A DNA stretch of 9,711 bases, taken from positions 1 to 9,711 of the forward strand of contig NZ_QTWS01000063.1 in the NCBI RefSeq assembly GCF_003461245.1. The letters are read 5' to 3'. Source of the stretch: Blautia sp. AF19-10LB (lineage in GTDB: Bacteria; Bacillota; Clostridia; Lachnospirales; Lachnospiraceae). This document shows, piece by piece, positions 2,065-9,192 of this stretch; the first letter of the stretch is position 1, and every line of letters starts with the position of its first letter. The translations under genes and the position numbers were made by a program. A model generated the notes under the pieces. It did no database searches. It saw only the letters and a program-made list of their open reading frames with translations, and was not told the origin of the DNA.

Positions 2065-2451
2065 GTGACAAAAGACGAATGGTACAAACAGCTTTTTGAA
2101 AATCTGGGGAAGTCGACATTCCGAAGCAGATTTCATCTGAAGCAGGTGGACATTGATTATATCAACAGCAAAGGGCTGGACAAAATAGAAGAACATGCGC
2201 GCGATTTTATTGTAAAGCGCGAAGCACCGGCAGTGATTCCAAACGATGGAAAACAGACCCCAATGCGCGGTCATCCTGTATTCATCGCACAGCACGCAAC
2301 AGCGACATGCTGCCGTGGCTGCATTAAGAAATGGCACAAGATCCAGCCAGGGAAACAATTGAGCCAGGTGCAGCAGGACTACCTCGTGGACGTGATCATG
2401 ACCTGGATTCGGCAGGAGATGGAACTGTTTCAGGACAGACTGATAAGGTAA
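2065..2451 (+). CDS. DUF4186 family protein
   Basis: This 128-aa soluble protein has no known function. The family is recognised from its conserved core: NDGKQTPMRGHPVFIAQHAT, then ATCCRGC with clustered cysteines, then a helical tail (DYLVDVIMTWIRQEM). The Cys/His content suggests metal binding, but that is inference. I chose GTG 2065 because GGGAG at 2052-2056 lies 8 nt upstream. An in-frame GTG at 2056 would add three residues (MRK) but has no ribosome site. The stop falls 11 nt before the start of the hydrolase, whose ribosome site overlaps this stop, so the two are probably co-transcribed. A group II intron ends about 35 nt upstream, so the original promoter may have been separated from the gene. 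Confidence 0.82.
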   Translation: MTKDEWYKQLFENLGKSTFRSRFHLKQVDIDYINSKGLDKIEEHARDFIVKREAPAVIPNDGKQTPMRGHPVFIAQHATATCCRGCIKKWHKIQPGKQLSQVQQDYLVDVIMTWIRQEMELFQDRLIR

Positions 2452-2462
2452 GGAGTGCAGAC

Positions 2463-3300
2463 ATGCGATCAATGAAACCCGACAGGGATATTTGCGTAAG
2501 AAAAATCAAGATACCTTCTGAGGGCAGAAATATTCCGGCACTTGTCCTTTCGCCGAAGAAAAAGACGGATAAAACGCCGGGGATTTTGTGGATTCATGGT
2601 GGCGGATATATCGCCGGAATGAAAGAAATGGTTCATATGTCAAGAGCGGTGGATCTTGTCAAAAAATACGGAGCAGTGGTCTTTTCCCCTGGCTACAGAA
2701 TGGCTTTCGAGACTCCGTATCCGGCGGCACTGGATGACTGCTATGATGCACTTTTGTATTTGAAAAATCATGCAGATGAGCTGGGAATCAGAACGGATCA
2801 GATCATGGTCGGTGGAGAAAGTGCCGGCGGCGGGCTGTGTGTCGCTGTATGCATGAAAGCGAGAGATACAGGGGATGTGAAGATTGCTTTTCAGATGCCA
2901 TTGTATCCAATGCTGGATGACCGGGATACGGAAACATCCCGGGACAATCACGGCAAAGTCTGGAATACACGGAAAAAATCATTTCGCCTGGAAAATGTAT
3001 CTGCGAAATACTGACAAAACCAAGGTACCGATCTATGCTGCTCCGGCAAGGTGCACAGACTTTTCTGGTCTGCCGCCGGCCTACACGTTTGTAGGAGATG
3101 GAGAGCCGTTTTTTGCAGAAGCCGTGCGATACATACATAAACTGAAGAAAAACAACATCCACGCAGAACTGGACATTTACCACAGCAACATCCACGCCTT
3201 CGACATGATGTACCCGGAACTGGAAATCAGCCACCAGGCAGCAGAAAAGTTCAACCGACAGTTTACATATGCGAAGGGGCATTTTTTCGCAGAGCAATAG
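2463..3300 (+). pseudogene. Alpha/beta hydrolase (HSL/esterase type), one-base frameshift
   Basis: The family consists of carboxylesterases that cleave acyl esters with a Ser-Asp-His triad. The start ATG 2463 is set by AAGGAG at 2450-2455. Residues 45-49 are HGGGY (oxyanion hole) and 118-123 are GESAGG, with nucleophile Ser120. The first frame stops at 3014. The expected continuation lies one base on: RKNHFAWKMYLRN, then PPAYTFVGDGEPF (likely catalytic Asp) and YHSNIHAFDMM (likely catalytic His), ending at 3300. Dropping one A from the A6 run at 2973-2978 joins the two into a 278-aa protein with a complete triad, which fits the usual family length. The frameshift may be a true mutation, a sequencing error in the homopolymer, or a slippage site. 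As read, the product lacks Asp and His and would be inactive. Confidence 0.85.
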
Positions 3301-3389: not shown

Positions 3390-4219
3390 ATGTTCCGGGC
3401 ACAACCCAGGTCAGAACTAAGTAAGTTTATTAATGCGTATAAAAGTGCCAGTAGCAGACTGTTGAAAAAAGAATATCCACAGATAAAAGAAAAACTGTGG
3501 AAAGAAGCAGATTCTCTTGCACTGGCAAATGTGCAGAGGAACCTGGAAGGAGCCTTCTGGAAATTTTTTCGGGAACCGAAAGTGGGATTTCCAAATTATA
3601 AATCAAAAAAACATTCCCGGAAATCTTATACAACGAATATGGTAAATGGAAATATCTGCCTGCAGGAAAAGTCTCTGAAACTGCCAAAGATGACACCCAT
3701 AAAAATAAAACTTCATCGTTCGATACCGGAGTGCTGAGAAAAAGCTTGCCCGGGAACAGAGAAAACTTTCCAGATGCGAAAAGGGCAGCAGGAACTATCA
3801 GAAACAGAGGAAAAGGGTTGCATTATGTGATGAAAAGGATAAAGAACCAGAGGAAAGATTTCCATCATAAGCTCAGTCATGACCTTGCGGAGAAGTATGA
3901 TGCGGTATGTGTGGAAGATCTGAACCTGAAAGGGATAGCCGGAGGTCTGCACTTTGGAAAAAGGATACAGGATAACGGATATGGGCAGTTCCTTTCGATG
4001 CTTGGATATAAGCTGGAAGAACGTGGGAAATATCTTATAAAAGTAGACCGTTATTTTGCATCCAGTAAGATATGCAGCGTATGTGGGAACAGGAAGAAAG
4101 AACTGGCTTTGTCAGAACGGACATACATATGTGAATGTGGAAACTGGATGGATCGGGATGTGAATGCAGCTGTCAATATCCTGAAAGAAGGAAAAAAGGT
4201 ATATAAAAAGTGTGCGTAG
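3390..4219 (+). pseudogene. tnpB: Degenerate IS200/IS605-type TnpB (OrfB), deleted and frameshifted
   Basis: TnpB proteins are omega-RNA-guided DNA nucleases of IS605/IS1341-type elements. Three pieces survive. Frame one (3390 on) carries KEADSLALANVQRNLEGAF, then FFREPKVGFPNYKSKKHSRK, then TPIKIKLHRSIPE. The second piece (from 3733, another frame) reads AEKKLAREQRKLSRCEKGSR. The third (from about 3839) reads IKNQRKDFHHKLSHDLAEKY, then VCVEDLNL (RuvC-II Glu), CSVCG...CECG (zinc ribbon) and DRDVNAAVNI (RuvC-III Asp), ending at 4219. The first about 50-60 residues are missing. The segment between LHRSIPE and AEKKL, where the RuvC-I Asp normally sits, is deleted. An extra G near 3838 shifts frame. 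No tnpA is nearby, so the element was of the TnpB-only kind. A working nuclease cannot be made. Confidence 0.9.
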
Positions 4220-4736: not shown

Positions 4737-5060
4737 ATGGAAAATTTGATCTGGTACATCATAATGATCCCATGCAGTGCATTACTCACAGGAATTGGAA
4801 TTTACGCATGGAACAGGAAAAAACCTATGTGGTTCTGGTCTGGAAAGACTGTTAAAGAGACAGAGATTTCAGATATTACTGCTTACAATCATGCCAATGG
4901 AATTATGTGGATCGTATACTCCATTATTTATTGGATGGCGACATTTGCCGGGATTTGGAATTCTATAGCAGCATTGGACCTGATCATAGTAGGCTGTGTA
5001 ATTGGGATTCCGGTGCTGGTAGTTGTATATAATCGAATATATGCAAGATATAAGGTCTGA
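4737..5060 (+). CDS. Small three-helix membrane protein of unknown function
   Basis: I do not recognise this 107-aa protein with certainty. It shows three hydrophobic segments at about residues 4-25, 54-73 and 79-100. The loop between the first and second is polar (WNRKKPMWFWSGKTVKETEI) with an Asn-His-Ala-Asn motif just before helix two. The tail RIYARYKV is basic, suggesting a cytoplasmic C-terminus. The pattern is loosely like small SdpI-type immunity or permease-like proteins, but no diagnostic motif supports that. The start is set by GAAAGGTG a few nt upstream. tdk follows 69 nt later with no terminator between, so the two may share a transcript. Confidence 0.75.
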   Translation: MENLIWYIIMIPCSALLTGIGIYAWNRKKPMWFWSGKTVKETEISDITAYNHANGIMWIVYSIIYWMATFAGIWNSIAALDLIIVGCVIGIPVLVVVYNRIYARYKV

Positions 5061-5129: not shown

Positions 5130-5726
5130 ATGGCAAAATTATATTTCAGATACGGAGCAATGGGCAGTTCGAAGTCTGCCAATATTCTGATGGTCCGTTA
5201 TAATTATGAAGAACGTGGTCAGTATGCGGTATTATTAAAACCAAGGACTGATAACCGGGATGGGGAACATGAGATCAAGTCCCGGATAGGGCTGTCTGCA
5301 CCGGCTGAATATGTGGATGATTTTTTGCGGGAGATCTCGAAATGCTGGAATGCTGAAACTTCAGAATATATCTACCATGAAAAAAGGGTAGCAGCAGTTC
5401 TGGTGGACGAAGCACAGTTTCTTTCGCCCGAAGAAGTAGACAGATTATCGGATATCGTGGATTTTTATGATATTTCGGTTCTCTGCTATGGGCTTCGCAC
5501 CGACTTTTTGAACCATCTCTTTCCGGGCTCCAGGCGGCTTATGGAGATTGCAGACGTGATAGAAGAAGTCCCTACCGTATGCTGGTGTGGAAGAAGAGCA
5601 CAGTGCAACACCAGATATGCTAATGGCAAAATCGTCCGCGAAGGCGCACAGATCATGCTTGGTTCAAATGAAAGTTATGTGGCACTTTGCAGAAAGCACT
5701 ACAAAGAAGGAAAATTGTGGAAGTAG
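5130..5726 (+). CDS. tdk: Thymidine kinase
   Basis: This enzyme phosphorylates thymidine with ATP to give dTMP in the pyrimidine salvage pathway, in the cytoplasm. At 198 aa it has the usual length of class II bacterial thymidine kinase. The phosphate loop is GAMGSSKSA (residues 9-17), with Ser in place of the usual Gly before Lys, a variation tolerated in this family. VLVDEAQFL (about 90-98) is the Walker B/DEAQF motif, with the catalytic Glu. The C-terminal part has Cys pairs (CWCGRRAQC and ALCRKH) that form the structural zinc site, with the substrate-binding lasso between them. GGGGAAAGG lies 8 nt before the ATG. It ends 49 nt before tetR, which has its own promoter. Confidence 0.93.
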   Translation: MAKLYFRYGAMGSSKSANILMVRYNYEERGQYAVLLKPRTDNRDGEHEIKSRIGLSAPAEYVDDFLREISKCWNAETSEYIYHEKRVAAVLVDEAQFLSPEEVDRLSDIVDFYDISVLCYGLRTDFLNHLFPGSRRLMEIADVIEEVPTVCWCGRRAQCNTRYANGKIVREGAQIMLGSNESYVALCRKHYKEGKLWK

Positions 5727-5736
5727 AATAGTAACG

Positions 5737-5765
5737 TTGACAAAACGGTTAGTGCGTGCTAACAC
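5737..5765 (+). promoter_or_regulatory. tetR promoter with operator O1 in its spacer
   Basis: TTGACA (5737-5742) is a perfect -35. TAACAC (5760-5765) sits at exactly 17 nt as a weak -10. The spacer and -10 hold AAACGGTTAG-TGCGTG-CTAAC (5743-5763), whose arms GTTAG/CTAAC form an inverted repeat. The same pattern recurs at 7953-7972. A repressor bound here would cover the whole promoter, so autoregulation by the downstream TetR protein is the simplest reading. Confidence 0.8.
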
Positions 5766-5775
5766 AACAAGTGTT

Positions 5776-6384
5776 ATGAATGATGAGCGAAGAAAACAAA
5801 CCGAACAAAAATTAATCAGATCCGGCAGAGCAGAGTTCCTTGAGAAAGGTTATGCCAAGGCAAATCTTCGGGATATCTGTAAGGCGGCGAGGGTTACGAC
5901 CGGTGCATTTTATTTTTCTTTTGAAAACAAAGAAGCACTGTTGGCGGCGATCCTGGATCCTGTGATCACAGATTATCAGAGGATGTGCAGTGTATTTGCA
6001 AAGAGAGAAGAGGACGATCCTGGTACTGCAGATGACAATGAACGGCAGATGATGGAATATCTGTCAGCACATCGGACAGAGGCGATCATTCTGATGGAGA
6101 AATCCGCGGGCAGCCGGTACGAAGGATTTAAGAGCCAGATTGACATGCAGATGCAATCAGCATTTACCAGCTATTTTTCCAAATTTATGGGTGTCAGCCC
6201 CGATGCGGAACTTATCAGGATTCTGGTTTCCATGAGGCTTCAGGGATACATGGAACTGATCAAAGGAGATTATACCGTGGAAGAAAGAATAAGGCTTGCA
6301 AGAGAGATCGGCATCCACGCGGATGCAGGGTCGATGGCGTTAATTAAATATCTGAACGGACAAAAAGAAGTCTATCGCAAATAA
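5776..6384 (+). CDS. TetR/AcrR family transcriptional regulator
   Basis: This is a 202-aa one-component repressor. The N-terminal DNA-binding domain (about residues 5-55) shows the TetR pattern: AEFLEKGYAKANLRDICKAA, a turn, and VTTGAFYFSFENKEALL. The variable all-helical C-terminus (about 60-202) is the ligand and dimer domain; its ligand is unknown. I chose ATG 5776 because it begins just before the conserved helix 1; the same open frame extends upstream only through tdk. The start has no Shine-Dalgarno sequence and lies about 10 nt after the predicted -10, so the mRNA may be nearly leaderless. An operator fills its promoter, and an identical pattern lies in the promoter of the minus-strand methyltransferase, pointing to both as targets. 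A terminator overlaps its stop codon. Confidence 0.92.
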   Translation: MNDERRKQTEQKLIRSGRAEFLEKGYAKANLRDICKAARVTTGAFYFSFENKEALLAAILDPVITDYQRMCSVFAKREEDDPGTADDNERQMMEYLSAHRTEAIILMEKSAGSRYEGFKSQIDMQMQSAFTSYFSKFMGVSPDAELIRILVSMRLQGYMELIKGDYTVEERIRLAREIGIHADAGSMALIKYLNGQKEVYRK

Positions 6385-6399
6385 TGCGGTAGGCTTTTT
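6372..6399 (+). terminator. Rho-independent terminator after tetR
   Basis: CTATCGCA (6372-6379) pairs with TGCGGTAG (6385-6392) with one G-U pair and loop AATAA, followed by GCTTTTT. The stem includes the last codons and stop of tetR. It separates tetR from the next gene. Confidence 0.75.
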
Positions 6400-6477
6400 C
6401 TATTGCAAAACATAATTTTTTTCGGATTTGTTATGTGATCGCACAGATTTGATTTGAAATGTGAGGAGGAAAGAATC

Positions 6478-7266
6478 ATGAACGAAAAAGCAAACTATGG
6501 AAACTGGGTACCTGAGAAAGCTCTGTATATGTTGTTTGGAGCAGCAGTTGTTTTGGGCGCGATTGCGGTGATCGTACAGGTAGTATTGAGCAAGCCTGTG
6601 ATCACGGCAGCAGCAGGAGTACTCTGTGTACTGGCACTTATCATGGCTGTCTACATGCTGATTTGCCATGAGACATTTGCATTTGGAAAGGGAAATATGA
6701 TGGCGGGTGTGCATGAGCACCTGGTCGAGCATCTTGACTGGAACGGGGAAGGCAGACTGCTCGACATTGGATGCGGGGCAGCCGCACTTACGGTTCGCTG
6801 TGCCAAAGCTTTTCCAAAAGCACAGATCACCGCAATGGACTATTGGGGCGCAGAATGGAATTACGCCAAAGAACAGTGTGAAAAAAATGCACAGATAGAA
6901 GGCGTTGCGGACCGCACATCCTTTCAGAAAGGGGATGCTGCGAAGCTGGATTTTCCAGACGAATCGTTTGATGCGGCAGTAAGTAACTTTGTATTCCATG
7001 AAGTACGCACAGCAAAAGACAAACGGGATGTTGTAAGAGAAGCACTCCGGATAGTAAAAAAAGGCGGCGTATTTTCTTTCCAGGATATGTTTTCCCAGAA
7101 AGCACTGTACGGAGATATGGAGCAGTTCGTCCGTGAACTGAAGGCGGAAGGCATCTCAGAAGTACATTACATAGGAAATCTGGAAAAGAAACTCGACTTT
7201 ATCCCGGGGGTTGTAACAACACCATGGATGATCAGTGGAATGGGGATTATTTATGGAAAAAAATAA
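6478..7266 (+). CDS. Membrane-anchored class I SAM-dependent methyltransferase
   Basis: This 262-aa protein transfers a methyl group from S-adenosylmethionine to an unknown substrate. Two hydrophobic helices at about residues 14-35 and 40-62 anchor the N-terminus, with the catalytic domain on the cytoplasmic side by inference. Motif I is RLLDIGCGAAALTV, with Ala where a third Gly is usual. Other marks are ITAMDYWG (acidic residue for the SAM ribose, in a region slightly unlike the norm), a GDAAKLDFPDESFDAAVSNF-type block and IVKKGGVFSFQDMF. ATG 6478 is chosen because GAGGAGGA lies about 8 nt upstream; an in-frame TTG at 6454 is unlikely. No copy of the tetR operator is visible upstream and no clear promoter was found. 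It converges with the next methyltransferase, 15 bp apart. Confidence 0.88.
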   Translation: MNEKANYGNWVPEKALYMLFGAAVVLGAIAVIVQVVLSKPVITAAAGVLCVLALIMAVYMLICHETFAFGKGNMMAGVHEHLVEHLDWNGEGRLLDIGCGAAALTVRCAKAFPKAQITAMDYWGAEWNYAKEQCEKNAQIEGVADRTSFQKGDAAKLDFPDESFDAAVSNFVFHEVRTAKDKRDVVREALRIVKKGGVFSFQDMFSQKALYGDMEQFVRELKAEGISEVHYIGNLEKKLDFIPGVVTTPWMISGMGIIYGKK

Positions 7267-7281
7267 TTGATGGGTTCACTG

Positions 7282-7917
7282 TTATTTCCGTGCAACGAGG
7301 TGTGCGCGGAACCCTTTCTGTTTCTCCATAGTCAGTACAGTGAAGCCGGCTTTTTCTGCCATGGCGATGAATTCTGTGACTTTGTGTATCTTCACATCGC
7401 CGTGGCCAGCCAGATTTGCCAGAGGCATTTCCAGATGGTTCATCAGCCAGACGATAAAATCTGAAGAGGTATAGTCACGTAAAACGAGTCGGCCGCCTTT
7501 TCGCAGAACACGGTAAGTACTGTTAAAAAATGCCTGAGGATTCGGATAGTGATGGAAGCTGTTGGAACAGATCACCGCATCAAAAGAATCCTCAGCAAAA
7601 GGAAGATTTTCGCTGTCGCCTACGATAAATTCCGTGTTGGAAAGCTTCTTTGCCTGAGCGACCTTGATCATTTCAGGAGTGAGGTCGAGACCGATATAAT
7701 GTTTATCCGGGTATTTTTGATGGAGCAATTCAAGCATCGGTCCGGTTCCACAGCCACAGTCGAGCACATCGTGGAAAGGCTCCTTTTCCAGTTCTGCCAG
7801 GATCGGCGGGTAATCATCCTTACACATTTCATAAATACCGGAATGTTCACTGTCGTAAATCTTGGCTGCCTGTGTGAATTCTTTGATAGAAAGCTGTTTA
7901 TATTTTTCAGGTGTCAT
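7282..7917 (-). CDS. Class I SAM-dependent methyltransferase (Methyltransf_11 type)
   Basis: This is a soluble 211-aa methyltransferase of the UbiE-like fold; the substrate is unknown. SAM-binding motif I is VLDCGCGTGPMLELL (about residues 50-64), followed by HYIGLDLTPEMI (acidic residue binding the ribose). Then come the VGDSENLPF block, FDAVICSNSFHHYPNP (motif IV region) and VLRKGGRLVLRDY. The C-terminal part (AEKAGFTVLTMEKQKGFRAH) completes the fold. ATG 7917 is preceded by a strong AGGAGG (7924-7929). The promoter region carries a perfect inverted repeat, GGTTAG-N6-CTAACC, shared with the tetR promoter, which makes repression by that TetR likely. It runs toward the membrane-anchored methyltransferase and away from the NUDIX operon. 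Confidence 0.9.
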   Translation of the reverse strand: MTPEKYKQLSIKEFTQAAKIYDSEHSGIYEMCKDDYPPILAELEKEPFHDVLDCGCGTGPMLELLHQKYPDKHYIGLDLTPEMIKVAQAKKLSNTEFIVGDSENLPFAEDSFDAVICSNSFHHYPNPQAFFNSTYRVLRKGGRLVLRDYTSSDFIVWLMNHLEMPLANLAGHGDVKIHKVTEFIAMAEKAGFTVLTMEKQKGFRAHLVARK

Positions 7918-7952
7918 AAAAAAGGCCTCCTAAACTTGAAATTTTTTTGATA

Positions 7953-7973
7953 AACGGTTAGGTTATACTAACC
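7953..7973. promoter_or_regulatory. Operator O2 of the minus-strand methyltransferase
   Basis: GGTTAG-GTTATA-CTAACC (7956-7973) is a perfect 6-bp-arm inverted repeat. With AAAC to its left it matches the tetR operator O1 at all fixed positions of AAACGGTTAG-N6-CTAAC. On the minus strand its core gives TATAAC (7967-7962), a good -10, about 45 nt before the start codon. No strong -35 was found at the expected distance. Binding would overlap the -10. Confidence 0.75.
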
Positions 7974-8042
7974 AGACATTACCATAAATGCACAGAAAAG
8001 TCAATTAAACGGGGCGTGTCTGTGTATTTTGGTTTGGGAGTA

Positions 8043-8051
8043 TGCTATAGT
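8043..8051 (+). promoter_or_regulatory. Extended -10 promoter for the NUDIX operon
   Basis: TG-C-TATAGT (8043-8051) is an extended -10, 40 nt before the ATG at 8091. No good -35 is seen, which is acceptable for extended -10 promoters. Confidence 0.5.
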
Positions 8052-8090
8052 TATTAGAGATAGGAATGTATGAAAGAAAGGAAAACTGAA

Positions 8091-8552
8091 ATGACGACAA
8101 CTACGTTGTGTTACATAGAAAATGATAATAAATATCTGATGCTTCACAGAGTAAAAAAGAAAAACGACATGAACGAAGGCAAATGGATCGGCGTCGGCGG
8201 GCATGTGGAAAGCCAGGAAACTCCTGAGGAATGTCTCGTGCGTGAAGTGAAGGAAGAAACAGGACTTACACTCACCTCGTATAAATTTCGCGGGCTGGTA
8301 ACGTTTATAAACAGCGAATGTGAATCCGAGCTTATGTGCGTGTTTACAGCGGACGGATATACAGGTGAACTGATTGAATGCAATGAGGGTGAGCTTTGCT
8401 GGATCGACAAAGCCAGGGTATCGGAACTTCCTGCATGGGAGGGGGATAAAGTGTTTCTTGATCTGCTTCTTTCGGGCGAAGAACGTTTTTTCTCTGTGAA
8501 ACTGCAGTATGAAGGCGACAGACTTGTCGAAACGAAGATCAATTTGTATTGA
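8091..8552 (+). CDS. NUDIX hydrolase, MutT / 8-oxo-dGTP diphosphatase type
   Basis: This 153-aa enzyme hydrolyses a nucleoside diphosphate linked to another moiety. The relatives it most resembles by length and N-terminus (MTTTTLCYIENDNKYLMLHR) are annotated as 8-oxo-dGTP diphosphatases that cleanse the nucleotide pool, but exact specificity cannot be read here. The Nudix box is complete: G37, E43, then R51-E52-V-K-E55-E56-T-G58-L59, with the metal-binding glutamates kept. The start ATG 8091 is chosen over the in-frame ATG 8070 because AAAGGAAA precedes it at a good distance and it matches the usual family N-terminus. The next NUDIX gene starts 17 nt after its stop, so the two form an operon. 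Confidence 0.9.
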   Translation: MTTTTLCYIENDNKYLMLHRVKKKNDMNEGKWIGVGGHVESQETPEECLVREVKEETGLTLTSYKFRGLVTFINSECESELMCVFTADGYTGELIECNEGELCWIDKARVSELPAWEGDKVFLDLLLSGEERFFSVKLQYEGDRLVETKINLY

Positions 8553-8569
8553 GAAGGGAACTTACAAGA

Positions 8570-9192
8570 TGGATAAAAATAAACAATGGATCGATCTGAT
8601 CGTGGAACTGCAGGGTCTTGCACAGGCAGGACTTACCTATGGAAAAGATGTTTATGACAAAGAACGTTATGAACGCATCCGGGATATTTCTGCTGAAATG
8701 ATGGCTGAGCTTTCAGGTGTGCCAGTGGAAAAAGTAAAAGATCTTTTCTGTAATGAAACCGGCTACCAGACACCAAAAATCGATACCCGCGCAGCGATAT
8801 TTGAAGAGGGAAAAATCCTGCTCGTTCACGAAAACAACGGAACCTGGTCACTGCCGGGTGGATGGTGTGATGTAAATGTATCCGTGACAGAAAATACAAT
8901 AAAAGAAGTGAAAGAAGAAGCAGGTCTTGATGTTTCTGTCAAAAGCGTGATCGCCATTCAGGACAGGGAAAAGCATAATCTTCCGGTCTATGCATACAGA
9001 GTCTGCAAGATATTCATGCTCTGCGCGGCGACTGGCGGAGGTTTTGAAGAGAATATTGAGACTACAGGTTTTGACTATTTTGCAGAGGACGAACTTCCTG
9101 AACTTGCAGGCGAAAAGAACAATGAAGAACAGATCAGAATGTGTTTTGATGCGTACCGCGCAGGTGATAAATGGAAGACATTTTTTGATTGA
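8570..9192 (+). CDS. NUDIX hydrolase with N-terminal Nudix_N domain
   Basis: At 207 aa it has two parts. An N-terminal helical domain (about 1-65; WIDLIVELQGLAQAGLTYGK and YDKERYERIRDI) is typical of the Nudix_N family. The catalytic domain (about 70-200) has a Nudix box variant: LPGGWCDVNVSVTENTIKEV followed by KEEAGL. The first Glu of the classic box is Val104 and the Arg is Lys112, while Glu113, Glu116 and Glu117 remain; this GGWCDVN form is normal for the subfamily as I recall it. Relatives are annotated as ADP-ribose or CDP-choline pyrophosphatases; the substrate here is not determined. GAGAAGGGA lies about 9 nt before the ATG. It is the second gene of the NUDIX operon and is closed by a strong terminator. 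Confidence 0.9.

Follow-up and report, generated by a model that had tools for sequence, protein, structure and literature searches.

A palindrome shared by a tetR promoter and a methyltransferase promoter in Blautia is probably the operator of an EqbA-type DtxR-family iron repressor

In a 9,711-nt stretch of DNA from Blautia sp. AF19-10LB (the window), the palindrome GTTAG-N6-CTAAC, here called site B, was found in the promoters of both a TetR-family regulator gene and a 211-aa methyltransferase gene. With a probability of about 0.8, site B is the operator of a short EqbA-type DtxR-family iron repressor encoded elsewhere, and TetR uses a second palindrome, site A. The evidence comes from the sites themselves, their conservation, the adjacent genes, the co-occurrence of the site with DtxR-like proteins and a published EqbA palindrome. 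Because site B matches the core of the palindrome required by EqbA, iron, and not TetR, is the likely switch for both genes. A box of this type is already known; its occurrence in Lachnospiraceae is apparently undescribed, as no report was found in the literature searched, which yielded no publication on DtxR and iron in Blautia or on an iron regulon of DtxR in Lachnospiraceae.

Three genes of the window are concerned: a 202-aa TetR-family regulator (5776..6384, plus strand; PF00440 TetR_N, 2e-12), a 262-aa membrane-anchored SAM methyltransferase (6478..7266, plus strand; PF08241, 3e-20) and the 211-aa SAM methyltransferase (7282..7917, minus strand; PF08241, 2e-27), the Pfam family of both enzymes being Methyltransf_11. 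The original prediction, that one sequence is shared by two promoters 2.2 kb apart, proved exact at both positions: the longer form AAACGGTTAG-N6-CTAAC lies at 5743-5763 (core TGCGTG) and 7952-7972 (core GTTATA), and each copy contains the inverted repeat that had been claimed, 5+5 in the first and 6+6 in the second. Only these two copies were present in the window when up to three mismatches were allowed; 200 shuffles gave a mean of 0.14 copies, with two or more in 3/200. The conserved unit is GTTAG-N6-CTAAC; the AAACG flank was also present in L001 (Blautia sp. MSJ-19, the closest relative retrieved) and missing from more distant orthologs. We therefore refer to site B1 (GTTAGTGCGTGCTAAC; 5748..5763, no strand assigned), where the tetR promoter is predicted to carry a metal box of the DtxR family (EqbA type), and site B2 (GTTAGGTTATACTAAC; 7957..7972, no strand assigned), a second predicted metal box, located at the -10/start region of the gene for the 211-aa methyltransferase.

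In the tetR promoter (plus strand), the predicted -35 TTGACA was found exactly (5737..5742); the -10 at 17-bp spacing, read by eye as TAACAC (5760-5765), is weak, matching 3/6 consensus bases, and is overlapped by the right arm of B1. If this -10 is real, the tetR mRNA would be nearly leaderless. TTGACA was kept in L001, L003 and L004, was TTGACC in L002 and was not found in L007. For the 211-aa methyltransferase, TATAAC within the second site had been proposed as the -10; it fits 5/6 bases, but by eye no -35-like hexamer stands 16-18 bp upstream, and it was tentatively set aside. A tentative alternative on the minus strand (7976..8004), also read by eye, consists of TTGACT (8004-7999), N17 and TAATGT (7981-7976; 3/6 consensus bases); it was kept in L112 and L113, and L114 and L115 retain TTGACT only. 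A promoter consensus scan of the window returned neither by-eye promoter. Under either choice for the methyltransferase gene, the palindrome covers its -10 or start region.

Promoters of orthologs of both genes were aligned. L001, whose identity to the window is 92-95% across 5731-9190, had both sites with changed core bases. B1 was exact in L001 and L003, carried one end-base change in L002, was degenerate in L004 and was absent from L007; the last two cases count against the main reading. Upstream of the 211-aa methyltransferase gene (the METHYLTRANSFERASE promoter), a strict site B lay no more than about 120 bp away in 8/12 orthologs among 64 genomes of the genus (L112-L117, L122, L123), including 5/5 orthologs at 70% identity or more; of the remaining four, L118-L120 follow a ZIP transporter gene and L121 has no site. 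An alignment of five of these promoters retained TTGACT and the site B arms, and many other bases differed. A family-wide search gave 15 matches, two already seen (L112, L121) and 13 at new loci with 58-69% identity. At the new loci the strict site stood directly upstream in L236 alone, which also counts against our reading; it was at the head of the locus in L225 and L230, a one-end-base variant was at the head of L235, L227 and L232 had the site downstream of the gene only, and seven had none. At many new loci an ORF on the same strand stands a short way upstream, and the methyltransferase gene may therefore belong to other operons there. Orthologs of both genes thus share upstream a site B whose arms are fixed and whose six core bases vary between species, as expected if one regulator acts through the shared site. 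This part of the original interpretation stands; the naming of TetR as that regulator does not.

Site B also recurred repeatedly at the loci of distant TetR relatives. Four genomes held 4 to 9 copies each, against 0 to 2 of the reversed pattern; the totals were 313 versus 97 in the 64 genus genomes and 2300 versus 727 in 397 genomes of the family. Of 106 distinct sites examined, 102 lay outside the deep interior of any ORF, compared with 22% of random positions; 93 were followed within 300 bp by an ORF start, compared with 30% of random positions, and this gene-start figure is approximate because ORFs were called by our own script without annotation. Random positions served as the positional control, as the examined loci held 0 reversed-pattern sites. 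Neighbours identified by Pfam were FeoA, an adjacent short DtxR-family gene, DUF3793, ZIP, DUF2325, ABC transporters, Trep_Strep, AraC regulators, DUF454, AhpC and methyltransferases; reading of the sequences added enolase, feoB where it follows feoA, and a flavodoxin-like gene that accompanies some DUF3793 genes. Site B thus stands at the metal-uptake genes feoA and ZIP, and also at ABC gene pairs of unproven substrate, which we label YbtPQ-like. A methyltransferase related to five queries was present in 10/94 loci fetched around sites, a raw count with no control set. Enolase genes, assigned by reading, were preceded by site B in L088, L099, L214 and L042, an unexpected target for a metal box.

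The site count followed the presence of a DtxR-family regulator. Family genomes with a match to a short DtxR-family regulator at E<=1e-15 (366/397) averaged 6.14 sites versus 1.84 reversed patterns, and the 31 genomes without one, which may partly be incomplete, averaged 1.68 versus 1.74; site counts differed between the two groups (Mann-Whitney p=4e-9), and control counts were alike (p=0.37). Sites outnumbered the reversed pattern in 282 of the DtxR-positive genomes, equalled it in 43 and were fewer in 41, the last group being evidence against our reading. The DtxR-like proteins contain PF01325 and PF02742 and match MntR and IdeR in the PDB. In seven aligned Lachnospiraceae proteins, Cys at residue 100 (numbering of the first) was invariant, and residue 9 was Asn in six and Asp in one. 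We infer from genome G001 that the genome of the window encodes such a protein.

In Streptococcus equi, an iron-acquisition locus is repressed by the DtxR-like protein EqbA (PMC3672683). The eqbB promoter palindrome holds GTTAGATGTATCTAAC, EqbA shifts no fragment without the palindrome, and a partial shift that remains after EDTA is enhanced by Fe2+ and Zn2+ and less so by Mn2+. Both window sites contain GTTAG-N6-CTAAC as the eqbB palindrome does, and the systems are further alike in having a DtxR-like regulator and iron-acquisition targets. Cys104 and Asn13 are described in EqbA (PMC3672683); Cys100 and Asn9 of the Lachnospiraceae proteins are what we take to be the corresponding metal-binding residues, going by the published description of EqbA. 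The eqbB palindrome is 36 bp long and belongs to one mobile element, whereas in Lachnospiraceae a 16-bp core occurs at many loci and its targets include methyltransferases and a TetR. The classical DtxR/IdeR box, TTAGGTTAGSCTAACCTAA (PMC10317159, PMC7762939), is comparable in its related regulators, CTAAC-like repeats and overlap with a -10 or start site. That box spans 19 bp with four CCTAA repeats bound by two dimers, whereas the sites here have two arms separated by six free bases; read against the quoted consensus, its arrangement was found in neither window site.

Several other explanations were weighed against an EqbA-type repressor. That the two copies reflect chance or a recently duplicated promoter sequence with no shared regulator would fit their being the only two in the window, but fixed arms around varying cores, and the excess of the site over the reversed pattern in 282/366 DtxR-positive genomes, make this highly improbable. 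Binding of the shared site by the TetR of the window, with autoregulation and control of the 211-aa methyltransferase, was the original prediction. Both sites lie near tetR, L001 and L003 retain the tetR copy, as does L002 apart from one end base, and a half-site of site B resembles half of site A (CTAAC versus ATAAC). Against this, 59/64 genus genomes have no TetR match at E<=1e-30 (one, G002, holds a broken tetR copy, L007) and are still enriched in site B, 4.6 versus 1.6; the methyltransferase site is kept in G042, G052, G065 and G066, which have no such TetR match; and in an alignment of five other tetR promoters, L004 and L007 kept site A with site B degraded in the former and absent from the latter, although the loss in L007 is weak evidence because its tetR is itself broken. 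Site B was thus neither confined to TetR genomes nor present in all ortholog promoters, and the DtxR family tracks it. On this distribution and the promoter comparison, TetR was rejected as the binder of the shared site, and we regard that explanation as improbable. Most likely, judging from promoter sequences, TetR instead uses site A (CACAACAAGTGTTATG; 5763..5778, no strand assigned; consensus CATAACA-NN-TGTTATG), a predicted autoregulatory operator that overlaps the tetR ATG. Site A precedes tetR in 6/7 of the closest loci (L001-L004, L006, L007; not L005) and, within 3 kb, in 0/73 other loci (L008-L080). When six tetR promoters were aligned, the majority of unchanged columns lay within site A, which sits at the start codon, and not in site B. 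The case is weakened by the one mismatch in the window copy and by the degenerate state of the second copy there.

The other candidate binder is a different TetR family, whose genes are followed by ABC transporter gene pairs. At many loci site B stands between that tetR and the ABC genes, a short way past the former; when both regulators were fitted in the 64 genus genomes, the partial correlation was 0.39 for this TetR and 0.29 for DtxR; and the eight genus genomes without DtxR also lack this TetR. Within the genus it therefore tracks the site at least as well as DtxR does, which confounds the DtxR co-occurrence there and counts against the main reading. Site count correlated with the number of DtxR-like matches in these genomes (Spearman 0.60; 0.44 after genome size), and the plain comparison of genomes with and without DtxR was only suggestive (p=0.06, eight genomes without). 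However, 33 genus genomes that have DtxR and lack this TetR are still enriched, 3.5 versus 1.0 (p=0.002), sites also occur at feoA and dtxR, and the ABC operons of this TetR family, if they are targets, would alone yield the correlation. That the ABC-linked TetR is the cognate binder thus appears unlikely, about as much so as binding by the window's TetR.

If an EqbA-type repressor is the binder, iron-loaded DtxR would bind both start regions and turn off tetR and the 211-aa methyltransferase together. In iron shortage the 211-aa methyltransferase would come on and TetR would rise; TetR would repress its own gene and the membrane methyltransferase through the predicted site A until its ligand appears, so that raised TetR would hold the membrane enzyme down unless ligand is present. 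Binding, metal response and the direction of control are predictions in this scheme. A TetR switch on a methyltransferase, as originally proposed, is still likely; the enzyme concerned would be the membrane one, through site A, and not the 211-aa one. As had been noted, the membrane methyltransferase has no copy of site B; it is preceded by a different palindrome, a degenerate site A (6411..6435, no strand assigned) with the outer CATAA and the right TGTTATG half. Fuller copies precede this gene in L002 and L125, and tetR is followed by a related membrane methyltransferase gene in L001, L002 and L125. Site A also precedes an LCM-type methyltransferase gene in L004 and, at a distance of some 330 bp, in L003, and a DUF6796 gene in L005. 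The TetR resembles local repressors such as TtgR and MtrR (among its PDB sequence matches) in its TetR_N domain and in having site A in its own promoter and, in relatives, before a neighbouring gene. It differs in that the PDB matches cover mainly the DNA-binding part and in that tetR here is predicted to lie under an iron box.

A broader and more speculative scheme, which we consider possible yet doubtful, is a family-wide EqbA-type Lachnospiraceae iron regulon that has recruited small-molecule methyltransferases. TetR would be nested within it, with iron-loaded DtxR controlling tetR and one methyltransferase and TetR controlling a second, so that iron would swap two methyltransferases; both would modify a compound that TetR senses and that is toxic or binds metal. 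Through the site, a likely iron regulon in a dominant gut family, one we did not find described, becomes accessible at the sequence level; with TetR repressors, DUF3793 and DUF2325 proteins and methyltransferases that await characterisation placed in that likely regulon, their roles can be tested by iron limitation. It also cautions that a palindrome in a tetR promoter is not necessarily the site of that TetR.

In L111 (genome G013), and also in G020, G021 and G047, a 34-35%-identical TetR gene is closely followed by a DtxR-family gene. The 211-aa protein scored 87 against a cut-off of 155 for the DVU_1556 family (NCBIfam NF045667) and was not assigned to it. PADLOC returned only methyltransferase models (mad2 and others) and, for the NUDIX proteins, PDC-S07, with no model for TetR; no relatives were found among viral contigs. 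A 13-residue N-terminal extension of TetR, starting from the TTG of the -35, was rejected: L004 has an in-frame stop there and keeps site A, so the stretch upstream of the ATG was read as promoter DNA. This TTG (5737-5776 region) is often taken as the start in databases, giving 215-aa entries. At least 12 such residues were found in at least 72 of the 120 TetR homologs listed (85 rows minus 13 all-gap rows introduced from the alignment), and L[VAGE]xAN[ITM]TxV fits 60 of the 72.

Immediately upstream of tetR is a thymidine kinase gene (5130-5726); homology between the window and L001 stops at 5055 and resumes at 5731, indicating that this gene was gained or lost between them. Sequence reading also identified a group II intron-like reverse transcriptase at 1-2030, which looks broken since its ORF ends early at 1631 and the stretch of about 1606-1750 repeats an earlier part, and an alpha/beta hydrolase-like gene at 2331-3300, split across two frames. 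By ORF reading, a TnpB/OrfB-like transposon protein occupies 3390-4219 in two pieces.
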